A stretch of 64,000 nucleotides of DNA from Altererythrobacter epoxidivorans. GTDB taxonomy: Bacteria > Pseudomonadota > Alphaproteobacteria > Sphingomonadales > Sphingomonadaceae. Made by a program: the position numbers and the translations under genes. The first letter of the stretch is position 1. Each line of letters starts with the position of its first letter. Below the pieces are notes generated by a model. It saw only the letters and a program-made list of their open reading frames with translations. It made no database searches and had not been told where the DNA came from. Location of the stretch: positions 1,116,001 to 1,180,000 of the forward strand of contig NZ_CP012669.1 in the NCBI RefSeq assembly GCF_001281485.1. Reading direction: 5' to 3'. Shown here piece after piece: positions 17,398-23,872 of the stretch.

Positions 17398-18156
17398 ATG
17401 ACCAGCCAGATCGACCGCCTCCTCCACATCATGCGCACCCTTCGTCACCCCACAGAAGGCTGTGAATGGGATCTGGCGCAAACATTCCAGACGATCGTTC
17501 CGCACACGATCGAAGAAGCCTATGAAGTCGCCGACGCTGTCGAACGTAACGATCTCGAAGATCTACGTAGCGAGCTCGGCGACCTGCTTTTCCAGGTCGT
17601 CTTTCAATCTCGCATCGCCGAGGAAGCAGGACACTTCAATTTCGAGGACGTTGCCCGCGCAATGTCTGACAAGCTCGAAGCAAGGCATCCGCATATCTTC
17701 GGCGACGAAGAATTGCCCGGCGGGATGCGCGAGGAACGCTGGGAGGCCCTGAAAGCCAAGGAACGTGCCGCTGAAGGCTCGCAAAGCGCAATCGACGGTG
17801 TGGCGACAGCACTTCCAGCCCTCATCCGCGCGCAGAAACTGCAAAAGCGCGCAGCGCGGGTTGGCTTCGACTGGCCCGATATCGAGGGCCCCAGGGCAAA
17901 GGTTTTCGAGGAAATTGAGGAACTTGAATCGGCTACTTCGCAAACCCACCGTGAGGAAGAAGCCGGCGATCTGCTATTCGCAATCGTCAATTATTTGCGC
18001 GCCCATGATATAGCTGCAGAGGATGCGCTCCGGGCGGCAAATTCGAAGTTCGAAAGGCGATTTCGTGGGATGGAAGAGCTTGCCCAAGGCACATTCGAAC
18101 AACTCGACCTTGATGCCCAAGAGGCACTTTGGCAGCAAGTCAAAAGCCGGGAATAA
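17398..18156 (+). CDS. mazG: Nucleoside triphosphate pyrophosphohydrolase MazG
   Basis: 252-residue all-alpha NTP pyrophosphatase with two tandem MazG domains. The first has DLAQTFQTIVPHTIEEAYEV and DLRSELGDLLFQVVFQSRIA (E-x-x-E/D Mg2+ helices); the second has VFEEIEELESATSQTHREEE and EEAGDLLFAIVNYLRA. Removes non-canonical NTPs and may modulate ppGpp. It converges on hflX with 16 nt between the stops. Start ATG 17398 directly follows the AT-rich promoter-like tract. Confidence 0.94.
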   Translation: MTSQIDRLLHIMRTLRHPTEGCEWDLAQTFQTIVPHTIEEAYEVADAVERNDLEDLRSELGDLLFQVVFQSRIAEEAGHFNFEDVARAMSDKLEARHPHIFGDEELPGGMREERWEALKAKERAAEGSQSAIDGVATALPALIRAQKLQKRAARVGFDWPDIEGPRAKVFEEIEELESATSQTHREEEAGDLLFAIVNYLRAHDIAAEDALRAANSKFERRFRGMEELAQGTFEQLDLDAQEALWQQVKSRE

Positions 18157-18172
18157 CGCTTAGAATACAGCG

Positions 18173-19474
18173 TTATAGGCTTTGATATTGCCCCAATTCC
18201 TTCGGATTCAGGCGAACCCTGACGCGATGCTCGGGGCCAGTGTCCCCTTCCCTTTGCTCGTCCGACAGCACGTCTCCATGCGCGTAGAGCCAAGCCAGTC
18301 GCCTTCCGTCGCTAGCCGGTACGACAAACTCGCATTCACGGGCCTGCCCAGTCAGCATCGTCCCCACCTGCTCGAACAGGGCATCGATTCCTTCCCCGGT
18401 CAGCGCCGATATGATCGCGACGTCGTCAATGTTTTCGGCAGCCGTGCGCAGTTCGTCCGCAGCCTCGGGCTCGAGCAGATCGACCTTGTTCCAGACCTCC
18501 AGGATGGGAATATTGCTCGACCCGTCATCGGGATCGATCACTCCGAGATCAGCGAGCACTGAAAGCACTTGTTTCTTCTGTGCCTGATTACCGGCATTGG
18601 CCATGTCTCGAACGTGCAAGATCACGTCGGCCGCAGTTACTTCTTCCAACGTCGCCCTGAAGGCCGCAACGAGCTGGGTAGGAAGATCCGAAATGAAGCC
18701 AACCGTATCCGACAGGATCGCCTTCTCGACGCCCGGCAGGCTGATCGCCCGCATGGTCGGGTCCAGCGTCGCAAACAGCAGGTCTTCGGCCATAACCTCG
18801 GCGCCTGTCACGCGATTGAACAGCGTCGATTTCCCGGCGTTGGTGTATCCGACGAGCGCGATCACGGGCCACGGGGCGCGTTCACGTCTTTCGCGATGAA
18901 GGCTACGTGTCTTGCGAACCTGCTCCAGTTCACGGCGCAAACGCCCCATCCGCTGGCGGATCATGCGGCGATCGGCCTCGATCTGGGTTTCGCCAGGTCC
19001 GCCAAGGAAGCCAAAGCCGCCGCGCTGGCGCTCGAGGTGCGTCCAGCTCCGCACCAGGCGACTTTGCTGATAGTCGAGATGCGCGAGTTCGACCTGGAGC
19101 CGCCCTTCGGCGGTCGCGGCGCGCTCGCCGAATATCTCGAGGATCAGACCGGTCCGGTCGATGACCTTGCGCTTCAGCTTGTCTTCCAGATTGCGCTGCT
19201 GGATCGGTGAAAGCGCGCCATCGACGATAACGAGTTCTGCCTCGTTCTGTTCGCAAGCGGCAGCAATGTTGTCGACCTGGCCCGAACCGAACAGCGTATT
19301 GGGTCTGACGTCCCTGACGGGGATGATCTGTGCATCGGCAATGACCACGCCGATTGCGAGCGCAAGGCCGCACGCTTCCTCAAGCCGTTCCTTCGCATCG
19401 AGATCGTATTTCTGCGACCTGATGTCCGGACACAGGACAAGGGCCCGCGCACCGCGGGTAACCTCGCCCATCAA
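18173..19474 (-). CDS. hflX: Ribosome-associated GTPase HflX
   Basis: 433 residues. An N-terminal HflX ND1 domain is followed by a glycine-rich coiled region (RQRGGFGFLGGPGETQIE, about 165-185). The GTPase domain has G1 GYTNAGKSTLF, G3 DTVGFISDLP and G4 WNKVDLL. HflX splits or rescues stalled 70S ribosomes in other bacteria. It follows hfq by 14 nt on the same strand, as in the classic hfq-hflX pair, so co-transcription is likely. The start codon at 19474 is ATG (MMGEVTRGARALVLCPD). Confidence 0.95.
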   Translation of the reverse strand: MMGEVTRGARALVLCPDIRSQKYDLDAKERLEEACGLALAIGVVIADAQIIPVRDVRPNTLFGSGQVDNIAAACEQNEAELVIVDGALSPIQQRNLEDKLKRKVIDRTGLILEIFGERAATAEGRLQVELAHLDYQQSRLVRSWTHLERQRGGFGFLGGPGETQIEADRRMIRQRMGRLRRELEQVRKTRSLHRERRERAPWPVIALVGYTNAGKSTLFNRVTGAEVMAEDLLFATLDPTMRAISLPGVEKAILSDTVGFISDLPTQLVAAFRATLEEVTAADVILHVRDMANAGNQAQKKQVLSVLADLGVIDPDDGSSNIPILEVWNKVDLLEPEAADELRTAAENIDDVAIISALTGEGIDALFEQVGTMLTGQARECEFVVPASDGRRLAWLYAHGDVLSDEQREGDTGPEHRVRVRLNPKELGQYQSL

Positions 19475-19488
19475 GTCGTCATCGAAAC

Positions 19489-20031
19489 TCAGTCTTCGTC
19501 ACCTTCCCAATCGTCGGTCAGGTCGACCGGCGATGCAGGCTGGATCGTCGAAACTGCGTGCTTGTAGGCAAGCTGTACGAACCCGTCGCGCTCCAGCAAC
19601 ATGCAGAAGAGGTCGTATGCTGCGATCCGCCCCTGGAGCATCACGCCGTTCACGAGGAACATCGTGACCTGGACGTTCACTTCGCTGACGCGCGATAGGA
19701 AAACATCCTGCAACAGGCGCTGCTTCTTGTTCCCCGCCTGGCTGGCGAACTGTTCGGCATCGATCGGCTGACCGGGCATGATGGTCGATATCGCATGCTT
19801 GTAAACAAGCTGCGATTGGCCATCGCGGCGCAAAAGGATCGAGAAGTTGTCGAACCACGTGACAATGCCCTGCAGTTTGACGCCCTTCACCAGGAACATC
19901 GTTACAGGAACCTTGTTCTTGCGCAGCAAATTAAGAAACGCGTCCTGGAGATTGGCCTGCCTGCTATCTTTCGAAGAGACTGGATCGGGCTCGGAACGCG
20001 GTCGGGCAGAAAGGGTTCGCCCATTGGTCAT
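19489..20031 (-). CDS. hfq: Tandem-domain Hfq RNA chaperone
   Basis: 180 residues holding two complete Hfq/Sm domains in one chain. Domain 1 (about 25-86) has [28 protein letters not shown] and VYKHAISTI. Domain 2 (about 103-165) has [25 protein letters not shown] and AYKHAVSTI. Both keep the Y-K-H Sm2 motif and distal-face LQG. The rim basic patch (RRER in E. coli) is RKNK in domain 1 but SEVN in domain 2, so the halves have specialised. Ordinary Hfq is one domain of 70-100 residues forming a hexamer; here a trimer would give a pseudo-hexamer. ATG 20031 has CAGGAG 8 nt upstream. An acidic tail (DDWEGDED) ends the protein. hflX follows. Confidence 0.95.
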
Positions 20032-20116
20032 AGTTATTCTCCTGTTTTTGGCGGCCGCTTTTGCAGTCCGCAATCTGGTGGGGGCGCGCAAAGCACTCCC
20101 ACCGACTTTCCGACTT

Positions 20117-20145
20117 AATATTGCCGAATAAAGATCGTCTCGCAA
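20117..20145 (-). promoter_or_regulatory. Candidate sigma-70-type promoter for hfq
   Basis: On the minus strand TTGCGA (20145-20140) is separated by 17 nt from AATATT (20122-20117), about 85 nt before the hfq start. The 142-nt gap after ntrX makes an independent promoter likely. No experimental support can be read from sequence. Confidence 0.35.
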
Positions 20146-20173: not shown

Positions 20174-21574
20174 TCAATCCTCGTCTTTGTCCTGCCCATC
20201 CTTGCGTTCGGTCATGCCGAGCAGCTTGAGCTTGCGGTGCAAGGCCGATCGTTCCATCCCGATGAAGGTCGCGGTTTTCGAGATATTTCCGGAAAAACGG
20301 CGGATCTGGACGGTCAGGTATTCGCGTTCGAAGCTTTCCCTCGCTTCCCGCAGGGGTGCGCCCATCATCGCTGTCAGGCCCGAGCCTGAATCCGCAGTCT
20401 CGCCGCCCGTAATTTCCGCCGGAAGCATGTCCGGTTCCACGGTTTCGAGCCGGTCGCGGGGGGCAAGGATGATCGTGCGCTCCACGACATTGCGCAGTTC
20501 GCGGACGTTACCAGGCCAATCATAAGCCTGGAGCGCGGCTGTCGCCTCATCGCTCACTTCGGGCGGGGGGAACCCCTGCTCGGTGGCGTAACGCGTGAAG
20601 AAATGTTCGGCCAGCGCCGGAATGTCATCCCGTCGTTCTGCCAGGGAGGGGATTGTCACCGGCACGACGTTGAGGCGATAGAAGAGATCTTCGCGAAAGC
20701 GCCCCTCCTCCATCTCGACCGTCAGATCGCGTGAAGTCGATGATACGACGCGGACATCGACGCCGATCTGGCGACTGCCGCCTACGCGGACGAAACTCTG
20801 ATCGGTCAGTACGCGCAGGATGCGGGCCTGTGTCGACAGCGGCATGTCCGCAACCTCGTCGAGGTAAAGCGTGCCTCCATCGGCAAGTTCGAGCATGCCC
20901 TGGCGCACGAGCTTCCCATCGGCCTCCTCGCCGAACAGTTCCTGTTCGAAACGTTCGGGTGTGATGCGAGCGGAATTGACGATCACGAATGCGTTATCGG
21001 CCCGCGGGCTCCAGCTGTGTAGCAGCCGGGCTGCTACTTCCTTGCCCGCGCCTGCCGGACCCGATATGAGCACGCGGCTGCCGGTGTTTGCGACCCGCTT
21101 CAGTGTTGCGCGCACCGTGTTGATGGCGGTCGAATTGCCGGTGAATTCTTCGCCGCGTGCGACGGAATCGCGTTCGCGCAGCTGCGAGTTCTCACGGCGC
21201 AACCGTTCGGTTTCGGTCGCTCTTTCTACCAGCAGGAGAAGGCGTTCGGCTTCGAATGGCTTCTCGATGAAATCCATCGCGCCCCGACCGACCGCAGAAA
21301 CGGCCGTATCGATATTGCCATGGCCCGAAAAGATGATCACCGGGAGCGCGGGTTCACGCTGCTTGATCGCGTCGAGTACTTCGAGCCCGTCCATCTCGCT
21401 CCCGTGCAGCCAGACGTCGAGCAGAACGAGGCTCGGCCTACGCTCGTCGATGGCAGCAAGGGCATCGCTGCTGTTGGCAGCGGTTCGGCAGCTGTATCCC
21501 TCGTCGCTCAATACTCCAGCCACGAGATCGCGGATATCGCGTTCGTCATCTACGATCAGGATGTCGAGTGCCAT
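20174..21574 (-). CDS. ntrX: NtrX-type response regulator (lacks GAFTGA loop)
   Basis: 466 residues: a receiver domain (1-120, phosphoacceptor D in VLLDVWLHG and K in FIEKPFEAERL), an AAA+ domain (about 140-370, Walker A GPAGAGKE, Walker B GTLYLDEVADMP) and a Fis-type HTH at the C-terminus (ISKTATFIGMERSALHRKLK). Between ELFGEE and MLELADGG the GAFTGA sigma-54 contact loop is absent; NtrC in this same window retains it. NtrX is therefore unlikely to activate sigma-54 in the usual way. Transcribed after ntrY with a 25-nt gap. Confidence 0.93.
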   Translation of the reverse strand: MALDILIVDDERDIRDLVAGVLSDEGYSCRTAANSSDALAAIDERRPSLVLLDVWLHGSEMDGLEVLDAIKQREPALPVIIFSGHGNIDTAVSAVGRGAMDFIEKPFEAERLLLLVERATETERLRRENSQLRERDSVARGEEFTGNSTAINTVRATLKRVANTGSRVLISGPAGAGKEVAARLLHSWSPRADNAFVIVNSARITPERFEQELFGEEADGKLVRQGMLELADGGTLYLDEVADMPLSTQARILRVLTDQSFVRVGGSRQIGVDVRVVSSTSRDLTVEMEEGRFREDLFYRLNVVPVTIPSLAERRDDIPALAEHFFTRYATEQGFPPPEVSDEATAALQAYDWPGNVRELRNVVERTIILAPRDRLETVEPDMLPAEITGGETADSGSGLTAMMGAPLREARESFEREYLTVQIRRFSGNISKTATFIGMERSALHRKLKLLGMTERKDGQDKDED

Positions 21575-21599: not shown

Positions 21600-23813
21600 T
21601 CATTCGGCGGCCTCTTCGGTCCGCTCCAGGGGGTCGCGAGCAAAGCGCAGGACGACGCGTGTGCCGCCATCTTCACTGCTCGAAAAAACCATGTCGCCGC
21701 CATGCTCGTCGACGATCTTGTTGACGATGGCGAGGCCGAGCCCGGTGCCCTTCTCGCGCGTCGTCATGTAGGGTTCCATGATCCGGTCGCGTTCTTGCGG
21801 AAGTCCGATCCCGTTATCATCAACCGTCACGCAGAACATTTCGTCGTCCGACGCCAGCGTCACACGAATACGGCCGCGGAAATCGAGATCCGATGCTGCC
21901 GCCTTCGCCTCGACCGCTTCGACCGCATTTTTCAGGACATTGGTCATCGCCTGGCCGAGTTGGTGACGGTCGCAGCTAATCTGGCCTGCTTCGACGTCTT
22001 TCGTCGAAAGGTCGAAATTGATCTGCGGGTGAGCTACTTCCTGAAGGAACAGCGACTGCCGCACCAGATCGACGGCATCTTCCTGTCGGAAATGGGGTTT
22101 CGGCAGCCTGGCGAATGACGAAAATTCATCAACCATCTTCCTCAGGTCACCGACTTGTCGGACAATCGTATTGGTCAATTCGTCGAACAGATCGCCATCG
22201 CTTTCGATCTGTTTGCGATAGCGGCGTTTCAGCCGTTCGGTTGCAAGCTGGATTGGCGTCAGCGGGTTCTTGATCTCGTGCGCGATGCGGCGCGCCACGT
22301 CCGACCATGCGGCTTGCCGCTGATCCAGCAGCTGCCTCGTAATGTCTTCGAAGGTTATGACATAACCATCTGTTTCCGGGGCAATCTTTACCGCAAGGGT
22401 CAAATGCTCACCATTGTTTTGGTGCGATACGACGCCACTGGCCAGCCCAGCTTCGACCATCTGATCGATCTGGTTCGACAGATCGGATAGGCGCAGGCCG
22501 AGGAGCGGCCTGTCGGCATCTTCCATTAGGAGTTCCTGCGCCGTGCCGTTCATCAGCAAGACGTTGCCTTCGCCATCGGTCGAGATAACCCCGGCGGTTA
22601 CCGATTCCAGCACCGCTTCCATGAATGCGCGGCGATCGTCCAACTGGCGGTTCGCACTCACAAGCGCATCGGTCTGTTTTTCTAGCTGTGCGGTCATGCG
22701 ATTGAACGCACGGTTGAGCATCCCGATTTCATCCGCACCGGTCCTGCCCGCGACACGAAGCGCGAAATTGCCTGCCCCGACCTTTCGCGCGGCCCCGACC
22801 AGCTCGGTCAGAGGCTCGACCTGCCGGTCTGCAAATCGCAGCGCAAACCAGACAGCAAGTCCGACCAGCAGCAGGCTGATCACCAACAGCGCGAGGTTGA
22901 ACCGCAATTGCAGCGCCCTCGCCCGCTTTGTCAGGACATCATAGGAAGCGACGACCGATTTGGCACGCTCCCAATAGTTGAAGGAAGCCGCCTCTGCCGT
23001 TCGGGCGTTATAGAGGAAGATCCCGCCCTGCTCGTCGATCGGGGCAAGCGCGGCAATGCGTTCGGGGCTTCCCTCGACAACCACGAGTTCGCCTTCGTTC
23101 AGCCGGGCAATGGATTTCGATGCGAAGTCGAGCGGGCGATTGCCCGCAACCAGATCGAAGATTGCCGCCGTTCGGAGCGTATCGTCGGGCATCCGCTGGA
23201 GAATAGCGCTCTCCGTGACGTCGCGGGCCTGCGCCTGATACTTGTAGAAGTCGGCAAAGCCATCGTCGGCAAGAGAGCCGCGCTCGAAATAGAAACGAAG
23301 GTCGCCTGCCATGGCGATCGTCTCGTTCCCGACCTCGAGCTGGTTCTGCTCGTAATAACCCTGCGCCAGTTCATTGGCGTTCTGCATCAACCCGCGGGAA
23401 TCGCTCGAGAACCAGAAATTCACCCCGGACTGGAAAAGGAAGGCGGCAAACCCTGCAACGAGCAAGGTCGGGACGGCAGCGATCAGCGAGAAAAAGAAGA
23501 CGAGCCTGACATGTAGTCGCGCAGTGCTCACCGCAGCGCGCCTGAGAGCCAGCCTCCGGCCGACGAGAACGAGCAATGTCATCGCCGGTATCAGTGTCGC
23601 GATCAGTAGAACCGACACCTGGATCGACGGGAGCAATTGGCCGTCCGCCGGTGCACTGGTAAATGCGAACCAGGTGGTCCAGATCGCGGCAAGCAAAGCT
23701 ATAGCCGACAGGATTTCCAGCCAGAGAAAGACGTTCGCACGCCGCGAGGCTACAAGAAACCGCCTCCACCAACGCGGGGAGCGCTTGGCCTTGATGATCT
23801 GCGCCTCACTCAT
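21600..23813 (-). CDS. ntrY: NtrY-type membrane sensor histidine kinase
   Basis: 737 residues from ATG 23813. Three or four membrane segments in the first ~110 residues and a periplasmic/PAS-like sensing part are followed by another membrane helix (FNLALLVISLLLVGLAVWFAL), HAMP (about 325-380), PAS (about 385-490), HisKA with the phospho-His in [14 protein letters not shown], and an HATPase domain (N box NVLKNAVEAVE, G boxes DDNGIGLP and GTGLGLAI). NtrY senses nitrogen or redox state in other alphaproteobacteria and phosphorylates NtrX. A TTG 10 codons upstream is a less likely start. Confidence 0.94.
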   Translation of the reverse strand: MSEAQIIKAKRSPRWWRRFLVASRRANVFLWLEILSAIALLAAIWTTWFAFTSAPADGQLLPSIQVSVLLIATLIPAMTLLVLVGRRLALRRAAVSTARLHVRLVFFFSLIAAVPTLLVAGFAAFLFQSGVNFWFSSDSRGLMQNANELAQGYYEQNQLEVGNETIAMAGDLRFYFERGSLADDGFADFYKYQAQARDVTESAILQRMPDDTLRTAAIFDLVAGNRPLDFASKSIARLNEGELVVVEGSPERIAALAPIDEQGGIFLYNARTAEAASFNYWERAKSVVASYDVLTKRARALQLRFNLALLVISLLLVGLAVWFALRFADRQVEPLTELVGAARKVGAGNFALRVAGRTGADEIGMLNRAFNRMTAQLEKQTDALVSANRQLDDRRAFMEAVLESVTAGVISTDGEGNVLLMNGTAQELLMEDADRPLLGLRLSDLSNQIDQMVEAGLASGVVSHQNNGEHLTLAVKIAPETDGYVITFEDITRQLLDQRQAAWSDVARRIAHEIKNPLTPIQLATERLKRRYRKQIESDGDLFDELTNTIVRQVGDLRKMVDEFSSFARLPKPHFRQEDAVDLVRQSLFLQEVAHPQINFDLSTKDVEAGQISCDRHQLGQAMTNVLKNAVEAVEAKAAASDLDFRGRIRVTLASDDEMFCVTVDDNGIGLPQERDRIMEPYMTTREKGTGLGLAIVNKIVDEHGGDMVFSSSEDGGTRVVLRFARDPLERTEEAAE

Positions 23814-23872
23814 CGTTGCACGCTTACAACGGCGGTGTTGCAATCATGCAAGTGAAAAGTGTGGCTTTTGCG

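Follow-up and report, generated by a model that had tools for sequence, protein, structure and literature searches.

In Altererythrobacter epoxidivorans, Hfq is encoded as one chain with two Hfq domains, and in all 124 tandem chains compared, this one included, the domains carry a joint signature made of K28 in domain 1 and of N28, M31 and Q63 in domain 2 (residue positions within domains follow E. coli Hfq numbering throughout). Hfq is an RNA-matchmaking chaperone which is usually studied as a ring of six identical subunits. The gene lies in a window of 64,000 nucleotides (contig NZ_CP012669.1, positions 1,116,001 to 1,180,000), which is the whole stretch of DNA analyzed here.

The two-domain form and the idea of a trimer are already in print. 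In the passages on Hfq of their report, Yang et al. (2010; PMC2877685) described the Zymomonas mobilis protein ZMO0347 as having two Sm-like domains, unlike most bacterial Hfq, found this form to be common to six other Sphingomonadales species and raised the question whether the ring consists of three chains. Like the window protein, ZMO0347 is a single Hfq chain with two Sm-like domains, and these passages bear out the remark in the initial annotation that a tandem form had been recorded in sphingomonads. Unlike the present analysis, they do not contain domain-specific residues, a single origin or an arrangement of tail and rim. Among titles and the beginnings of abstracts in the open-access literature, no further paper on tandem Hfq was found and, mostly at the level of titles and abstracts, no description of the fixed asymmetry between domains 1 and 2. 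In the available parts of a study of hfq overexpression in Z. mobilis (PMC9797736), the words hexamer, trimer, distal and proximal are absent, and in those of PMC10725011, Hfq is named in the reference list alone. As reported, a Z. mobilis hfq insertion mutant grew more poorly under several inhibitors (PMC2877685), while regulation by the sRNA SuhB in Sphingopyxis granuli is Hfq-dependent (PMC6563040), which together indicate that the Hfq of this sphingomonad group is functional; named Sphingopyxis loci carry the tandem form.

The tandem hfq gene and its surroundings

Coordinates of the gene, of its parts and of its neighbors are collected in Table 1. Both PF17209 matches exceed the cut-off of 27 bits and lie in one open frame with no stop between them, at residues 28–90 and 107–169, close to the two full domains which the initial annotation had placed at residues 25–86 and 103–165. 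The YKH motif which it had noted is present in both domains, it had correctly read the rim motifs RKNK and SEVN and the proximal motifs NF (domain 1) and LF (domain 2), and Pfam places hflX directly downstream, as it had said. The Sm fold of each domain is supported by Pfam and structure-model matches. The two-domain model NF010691 (PRK14091) matches residues 19–180 with a score of 301.4 bits, above its curated cut-off of 270, but is named just "RNA chaperone Hfq", with no functional difference attached. No third PF17209 match was found at E 0.001 across the whole 2.79 Mb genome, of which the tandem hfq is the sole Hfq locus found. The worry that a stop or frameshift between the domains had been missed is excluded in practice, because the same two-domain frame recurs in 123 further loci from other genomes, and also in 74 of the best 80 loci from named records.

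Table 1. Position of the tandem hfq gene, its parts and its neighbors within the window.
Feature	Position	Strand	Basis
hfq, tandem two-domain Hfq, 180 aa	19489..20031	minus	ORF; NF010691 301 bits, cut-off 270
Shine-Dalgarno-like AGGAG 5' of the hfq ATG	20039..20043	minus	read from sequence
Hfq N-terminal extension, residues 1-27	19951..20031	minus	lower model confidence, pLDDT block means ~66-71
Hfq domain 1, residues 28-90	19762..19950	minus	PF17209, 107.2 bits
Linker, residues 91-106	19714..19761	minus	stretch separating the Pfam matches
Hfq domain 2, residues 107-169	19525..19713	minus	PF17209, 80.5 bits; in the model, residues 105-171 align with solved Hfq
Acidic C-terminal tail, residues 170-180	19492..19524	minus	charge counts across two-domain loci
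Domain 1 rim RKNK (E. coli 16-19)	19912..19923	minus	sequence
Domain 2 rim SEVN (E. coli 16-19), non-basic	19675..19686	minus	sequence
K49 of domain 1 (E. coli position 28)	19885..19887	minus	alignment
K52 of domain 1 (E. coli K31)	19876..19878	minus	alignment
N128 of domain 2 (E. coli N28)	19648..19650	minus	alignment
M131 of domain 2 (E. coli position 31)	19639..19641	minus	alignment
hflX, downstream neighbor	18173..19474	minus	Pfam GTP-bdg_N, GTP-bdg_M, HflX_C
ntrX-like response regulator, upstream neighbor	20174..21574	minus	Pfam response regulator and sigma-54 domains
ntrY	21600-23843		beside the ntrX-like gene

The ATG start at 20031 is preferred for its ribosome site alone over an in-frame TTG at 20145, the use of which would add 38 N-terminal residues to Hfq. 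Downstream of hfq, hflX is found on the same strand in 122 of the 123 two-domain loci, and ntrX lies upstream in 119 (not found in 4). In the window, a MazG nucleotide pyrophosphohydrolase gene (17398–18156) on the opposite strand is convergent with hflX.

Four consecutive A-R-N triplets (20038–20049) overlap the hfq ribosome site and form a possible candidate site for autoregulation through the distal face. Of 106 two-domain loci, 32 have a run of at least four such triplets before the start, as compared with a fraction of 0.027 in shuffles; such runs also occur in 6 of 22 single-domain loci and in none of the hflX controls, which comprise 8 loci only. Autoregulation via A-R-N repeats was not retained as an explanation, since the runs are shared with single-domain loci and are favored by purine-rich ribosome sites. 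The segment at 20048–20071, just 5' of this ribosome site, contains a GCCAA element and, before it, what may be a short hairpin. Of 107 two-domain rows, 93 have GCCAA at most 35 nt from the assigned start, as do 13 of 22 single-domain rows. In the leader, the signal for a hairpin is modest (mean of 5.9 pairs vs 5.0 in shuffles; 5 in the window), a common structure was not found in the leaders by RNAalifold and their folding z-scores average −0.8.

Distribution and origin of the tandem form

The distribution of Hfq domains was followed in overlapping samples of the order, class, family and phylum. By tally of the Pfam scan of the order-wide sample (396 genomes), two Hfq matches are present in 300 of the 313 genomes of the window's family and one in the other 13, while the 83 genomes of other families have one match in 76 cases, two in 1 (on separate contigs) and none in 6. 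Among the 149 genomes of the family sample, 119 score above the two-domain cut-off, 6 others match over both domains but fall below it (one of these being short), 21 have single-domain matches alone and 3 no match. All 5 members of the window's family in the class sample (385 genomes) pass this cut-off and none of the other 380 does, two of these having two Pfam matches at separate places. In the phylum sample (398 genomes), 18 of the 19 members of the window's family have two matches and one has a single match; outside the family, this sample holds no tandem and separate gene pairs alone.

In all, 805 distinct genomes from outside the family were Pfam-scanned (83 of the order, 380 of the class and 342 new ones of the phylum) at E 0.001, a threshold which a more degenerate second domain would escape. 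A tandem Hfq outside the family was considered and discarded: ten of these genomes have two matches (G001, G454, G701, G868, G1039, G1065, G1070, G1128, G1130 and G1133), and all ten have them at separate places, those of G701 being two pieces at contig ends. Genomes with two separate hfq genes, as in family f221, likewise possess two Hfq domains, but not in one chain. In G001 (locus L177), from another family of the order, the second match is partial and belongs to a short open frame on another contig. Within the window's family, the single-domain genome G777, rated 7% contaminated, has two equal-scoring Hfq genes ~2.8 Mb apart on contig 1, so that it matches at two places in the family sample.

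Named tandem records, in the best 80 of a larger number, come from Erythrobacter, Tsuneonella, Novosphingobium, Sphingobium, Sphingomonas, Sphingopyxis and Sphingorhabdus, and the nearest relatives of the window Hfq among the matches listed are from Erythrobacter spp. (84 and 82% identity). In a tblastn search of phage and plasmid records, a tandem-length match was found only in Sphingomonas parapaucimobilis, among the matches listed (5 of 6; 12 of 83).

For comparison, 123 two-domain loci from 79 genera were assembled, which with the window give 124 chains, along with a single-domain set of 57 rows from 55 genomes, 25 of them from the window's family. On a tree of HflX (FastTree, 177 rows), the two-domain genomes occupy one side of one branch (SH-like support of 97, one change), and every single-domain genome, the family's own included, falls outside this group; the tree is of one gene with a midpoint root, and its long or poorly placed rows (L005, L007 and L077) are none of them two-domain. 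The tandem Hfq arose once on this tree, with no reversal seen, and the gene order, with hflX downstream and ntrX upstream, agrees with a single origin. That the single-domain genomes of the family had secondarily lost domain 2 was also considered; it is unsupported, these genomes having kept N28 (K28 in 0 of the 55 single-domain genomes, the family's 25 included), and is opposed by their position outside the two-domain group. In a tree of the domains themselves (59 columns, a subset of 118 rows), domain 1 (96) and domain 2 (90) each cluster, with just 3 of 101 inner branches starred. Divergent tandem Hfq was observed in genus g12 (L076 of G094 and L174 of G103), many members of which have low Pfam scores; in L076, both linker and tail are shortened.

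Residue, rim and tail differences between the domains

Position 28 is N in all 57 single-domain rows, K in all 124 copies of domain 1 and again N in all 124 copies of domain 2. At position 31, K is found in all 57 single-domain rows and in 123 of 124 copies of domain 1 (R in one), and M in every copy of domain 2, while M occupies position 63 in 56 of 57 single-domain rows (one gap) and in 119 of 124 copies of domain 1, and Q does so in all 124 of domain 2. K28, M31 and Q63 each occur in none of the 55 single-domain genomes. In addition, domain 2 has L at position 41 in 116 of 124 copies and A at position 38 in 110, the latter position being W vs A between the domains. Named tandem loci, which may overlap in species with the 124 chains, agree with the signature at positions 28 and 31 in 74 of 74 cases and at Q63 in the 73 in which it was read (the motif missed one).

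Positions 28 and 31 have been reported as distal-face residues in other Hfq (PMC10628458; PMC8121710; PMC12262471), the distal A-R-N pocket being described as residues 25, 26, 28, 30, 32, 33, 52 and 61 (PMC10628458), with position 31 also in this pocket (PMC12262471). As read from the alignment, the residues of this pocket are kept in both domains apart from position 28 of domain 1 (K) and position 31 of domain 2 (M); F at 25 and V at 30 are conservative changes shared with Caulobacter. Q8, F42, K56 and H57, which we take to be the residues of the proximal U pocket, with position 41 presumably a further contact, are present in both domains, position 41 being L in domain 2. Across the 124 copies of domain 2, Q8, F25, Q52, K56, H57 and T61 are retained in 124, Q33 and Y55 in 123 and F42 in 122. 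Of 44 pairs within genera, 36 were usable for domain 1 and 35 for domain 2; median dN/dS came to 0.020 and 0.028, respectively, values which are rough, pS being high (~0.57–0.60). Both domains are under purifying selection within genera and domain 2, as judged from its residues, is evidently not dead. Mean pairwise identity is 0.665 for domain 2 vs 0.806 for domain 1 (3000 random pairs each). Coevolution between the domains was uninformative, with an effective number of ~21.

The rim was among the differences that the initial annotation had pointed out. A fully basic rim, with basic residues at 16, 17 and 19 alike, is found in 57 of 57 single-domain rows and in 124 of 124 copies of domain 1, but in only 14 of 124 copies of domain 2; none of the three residues is basic in 23 of the 124, and position 16 taken singly is basic in 89 of 123. 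The claim that domain 2 has lost its basic rim patch is therefore right for the window, with its SEVN motif, and fails as a rule for the family, just as its corollary that only half of the rim could serve annealing applies to the window and elsewhere depends on the lineage. Loss of the domain 2 rim varies by lineage. On the HflX tree, the fully basic domain 2 rim requires 4 changes by parsimony, with "not fully basic" at the two-domain root, so that the 14 basic copies may have been regained and not retained.

The tail after domain 2 averages a net charge of −6.1 and is at −3 or below in 118 of 123 loci, similar to single-domain tails (53 of 56). This acidic tail is found at the chain end alone, once per two domains, and the tail of domain 1 is replaced by a linker with a mean charge of 0.05 (0 or higher in 83 of 123 loci, −3 or lower in 5) and a length, counted from P64 of domain 1 to just before L7 of domain 2, of 21–23 residues in 115 of 123. 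In Caulobacter Hfq, the acidic tip has been reported to dock on the rim of the neighboring protomer and to restrain annealing (PMC6561178). The charge of the domain 2 rim correlates with that of the linker (Spearman −0.47 raw; r −0.24 by independent contrasts, with p 0.0085 for one pair out of ten tested) but not over the first 14 linker residues (r 0.02), and with tail charge r is 0.07. Being weak after phylogenetic control and absent in the first part of the linker, this coupling was not accepted as proof of a tail model.

A proposed ring of three chains and its alternatives

From these alignments, we think it reasonably probable that three tandem chains form a single pseudo-hexameric ring with alternating domains 1 and 2, which would work as a normal chaperone with halved rim and tail units. 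This trimer is the most economical assembly and most likely the one adopted. Six Sm folds from three chains would make up one closed ring. Domain 1 is a conventional Hfq, with U and A-R-N pockets and a basic rim for annealing. The sequence of domain 2 keeps most base-contacting residues of both pockets but has M in place of K31 on the distal face, mostly L at position 41 of the proximal face and, in the majority of lineages, a weakened rim. The initial annotation had spoken of alternating faces, which is inaccurate: the domains would alternate around one ring, each face having two kinds of site. It had noted neither the truly fixed changes (N28K in domain 1, K31M and M63Q in domain 2) nor the reduction to one acidic tail per two domains.

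Domain 1 has gained K28 on the distal face, and the count of lysines at positions 28 and 31 would be six either way, as six K31 normally vs three K28 and three K31 in an alternating ring. Their number would thus be kept and their arrangement changed, all six being carried by three of the six domains. With the tail on domain 2 alone, its neighbor in an alternating ring would always be domain 1, the rim of which is basic in every chain examined. Three reliable units of annealing rim and tail would replace the usual six, together with two alternating classes of distal pocket. The Caulobacter crescentus protein (6gwk; PMC6561178) is described, in contrast, as a homohexamer with one domain per chain, N28 and K31 in all six subunits and one tail per subunit. 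In E. coli, K31A was reported to cut RNA chimeras almost four-fold, a minimal regulatory effect having been reported earlier, and some targets were still regulated in R16A mutants (PMC12262471). On these findings, loss of such residues in half of the ring may matter little.

AlphaFold2 models of single chains, each from an alignment of 13 sequences, reached a mean pLDDT of 88.2 and a pTM of 0.78 for the window Hfq, and of 89.3 and 0.85 for a relative with a basic domain 2 rim. Each domain of the window model matches solved Hfq chains, one aligned domain accounting for a query-normalized TM-score of ~0.36 of the chain. Because both pTM values exceed this figure, the predictor seems confident of the relative placement of domains 1 and 2.

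A broader reading is offered tentatively, as possible though somewhat short of probable. The whole family would depend on an obligately asymmetric, three-fold Hfq, with lysines moved to domain 1, two kinds of A-R-N pocket and one tail per annealing rim, which would read RNA motifs with a two-domain period of about six nucleotides and anneal at three sites. With six identical subunits, the number of rim patches, tails or pockets that a ring requires is difficult to probe. Here, a covalent Hfq whose two subunits can be told apart has been fixed naturally. If the ring is the trimer proposed, three of its six sites could be cleanly mutated and the numbers needed for annealing or RNA exchange could be tested. 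In the cases found, mixed rings have so far been obtained by blending separate subunits: the laboratory hexamers reported to combine tagged with wild-type Hfq (PMC8266614; PMC9068810) also have two kinds of subunit per ring, but these were not covalently joined as in the tandem chain.

The sequence data are explained almost as well by a constructive neutral ratchet, which we consider unlikely but far from negligible. An in-frame duplication would have given a trimeric ring with no new function, after which domain 2 lost what was in excess (rim and K31), domain 1 compensated with K28 and mutual dependence barred reversal. The single origin with no reversal on the HflX tree, the seemingly complementary changes in the two domains, the unequal erosion of the rim among lineages, as expected under relaxed constraint, and the lower conservation of domain 2 all speak for it. 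K28, M31 and Q63 are fixed in every chain with no drift, and purifying selection on domain 2 is strong; both observations speak against such a ratchet, although neither amounts to proof of adaptation.

Two other arrangements would dispense with the alternating ring. That each domain has conserved residues of its own (M or Q at 63, W or A at 38) would suit six chains forming a ring of domain 1 and a ring of domain 2 joined by linkers; this we regard as quite improbable, since the sum of lysines at 28 and 31 would be kept only with both domains in one ring and the pTM values suggest that the domains are definitely placed relative to each other. It is highly improbable that the chain is processed, or domain 2 also started internally, with single-domain subunits entering the ring. 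An in-frame ATG, GTG or TTG does occur in 86 of 123 linkers (ATG in 47), but a Shine-Dalgarno-like 4-mer lies upstream of such a codon in just 10 of the 123, and the tightly kept length of the linkers also speaks against this reading.
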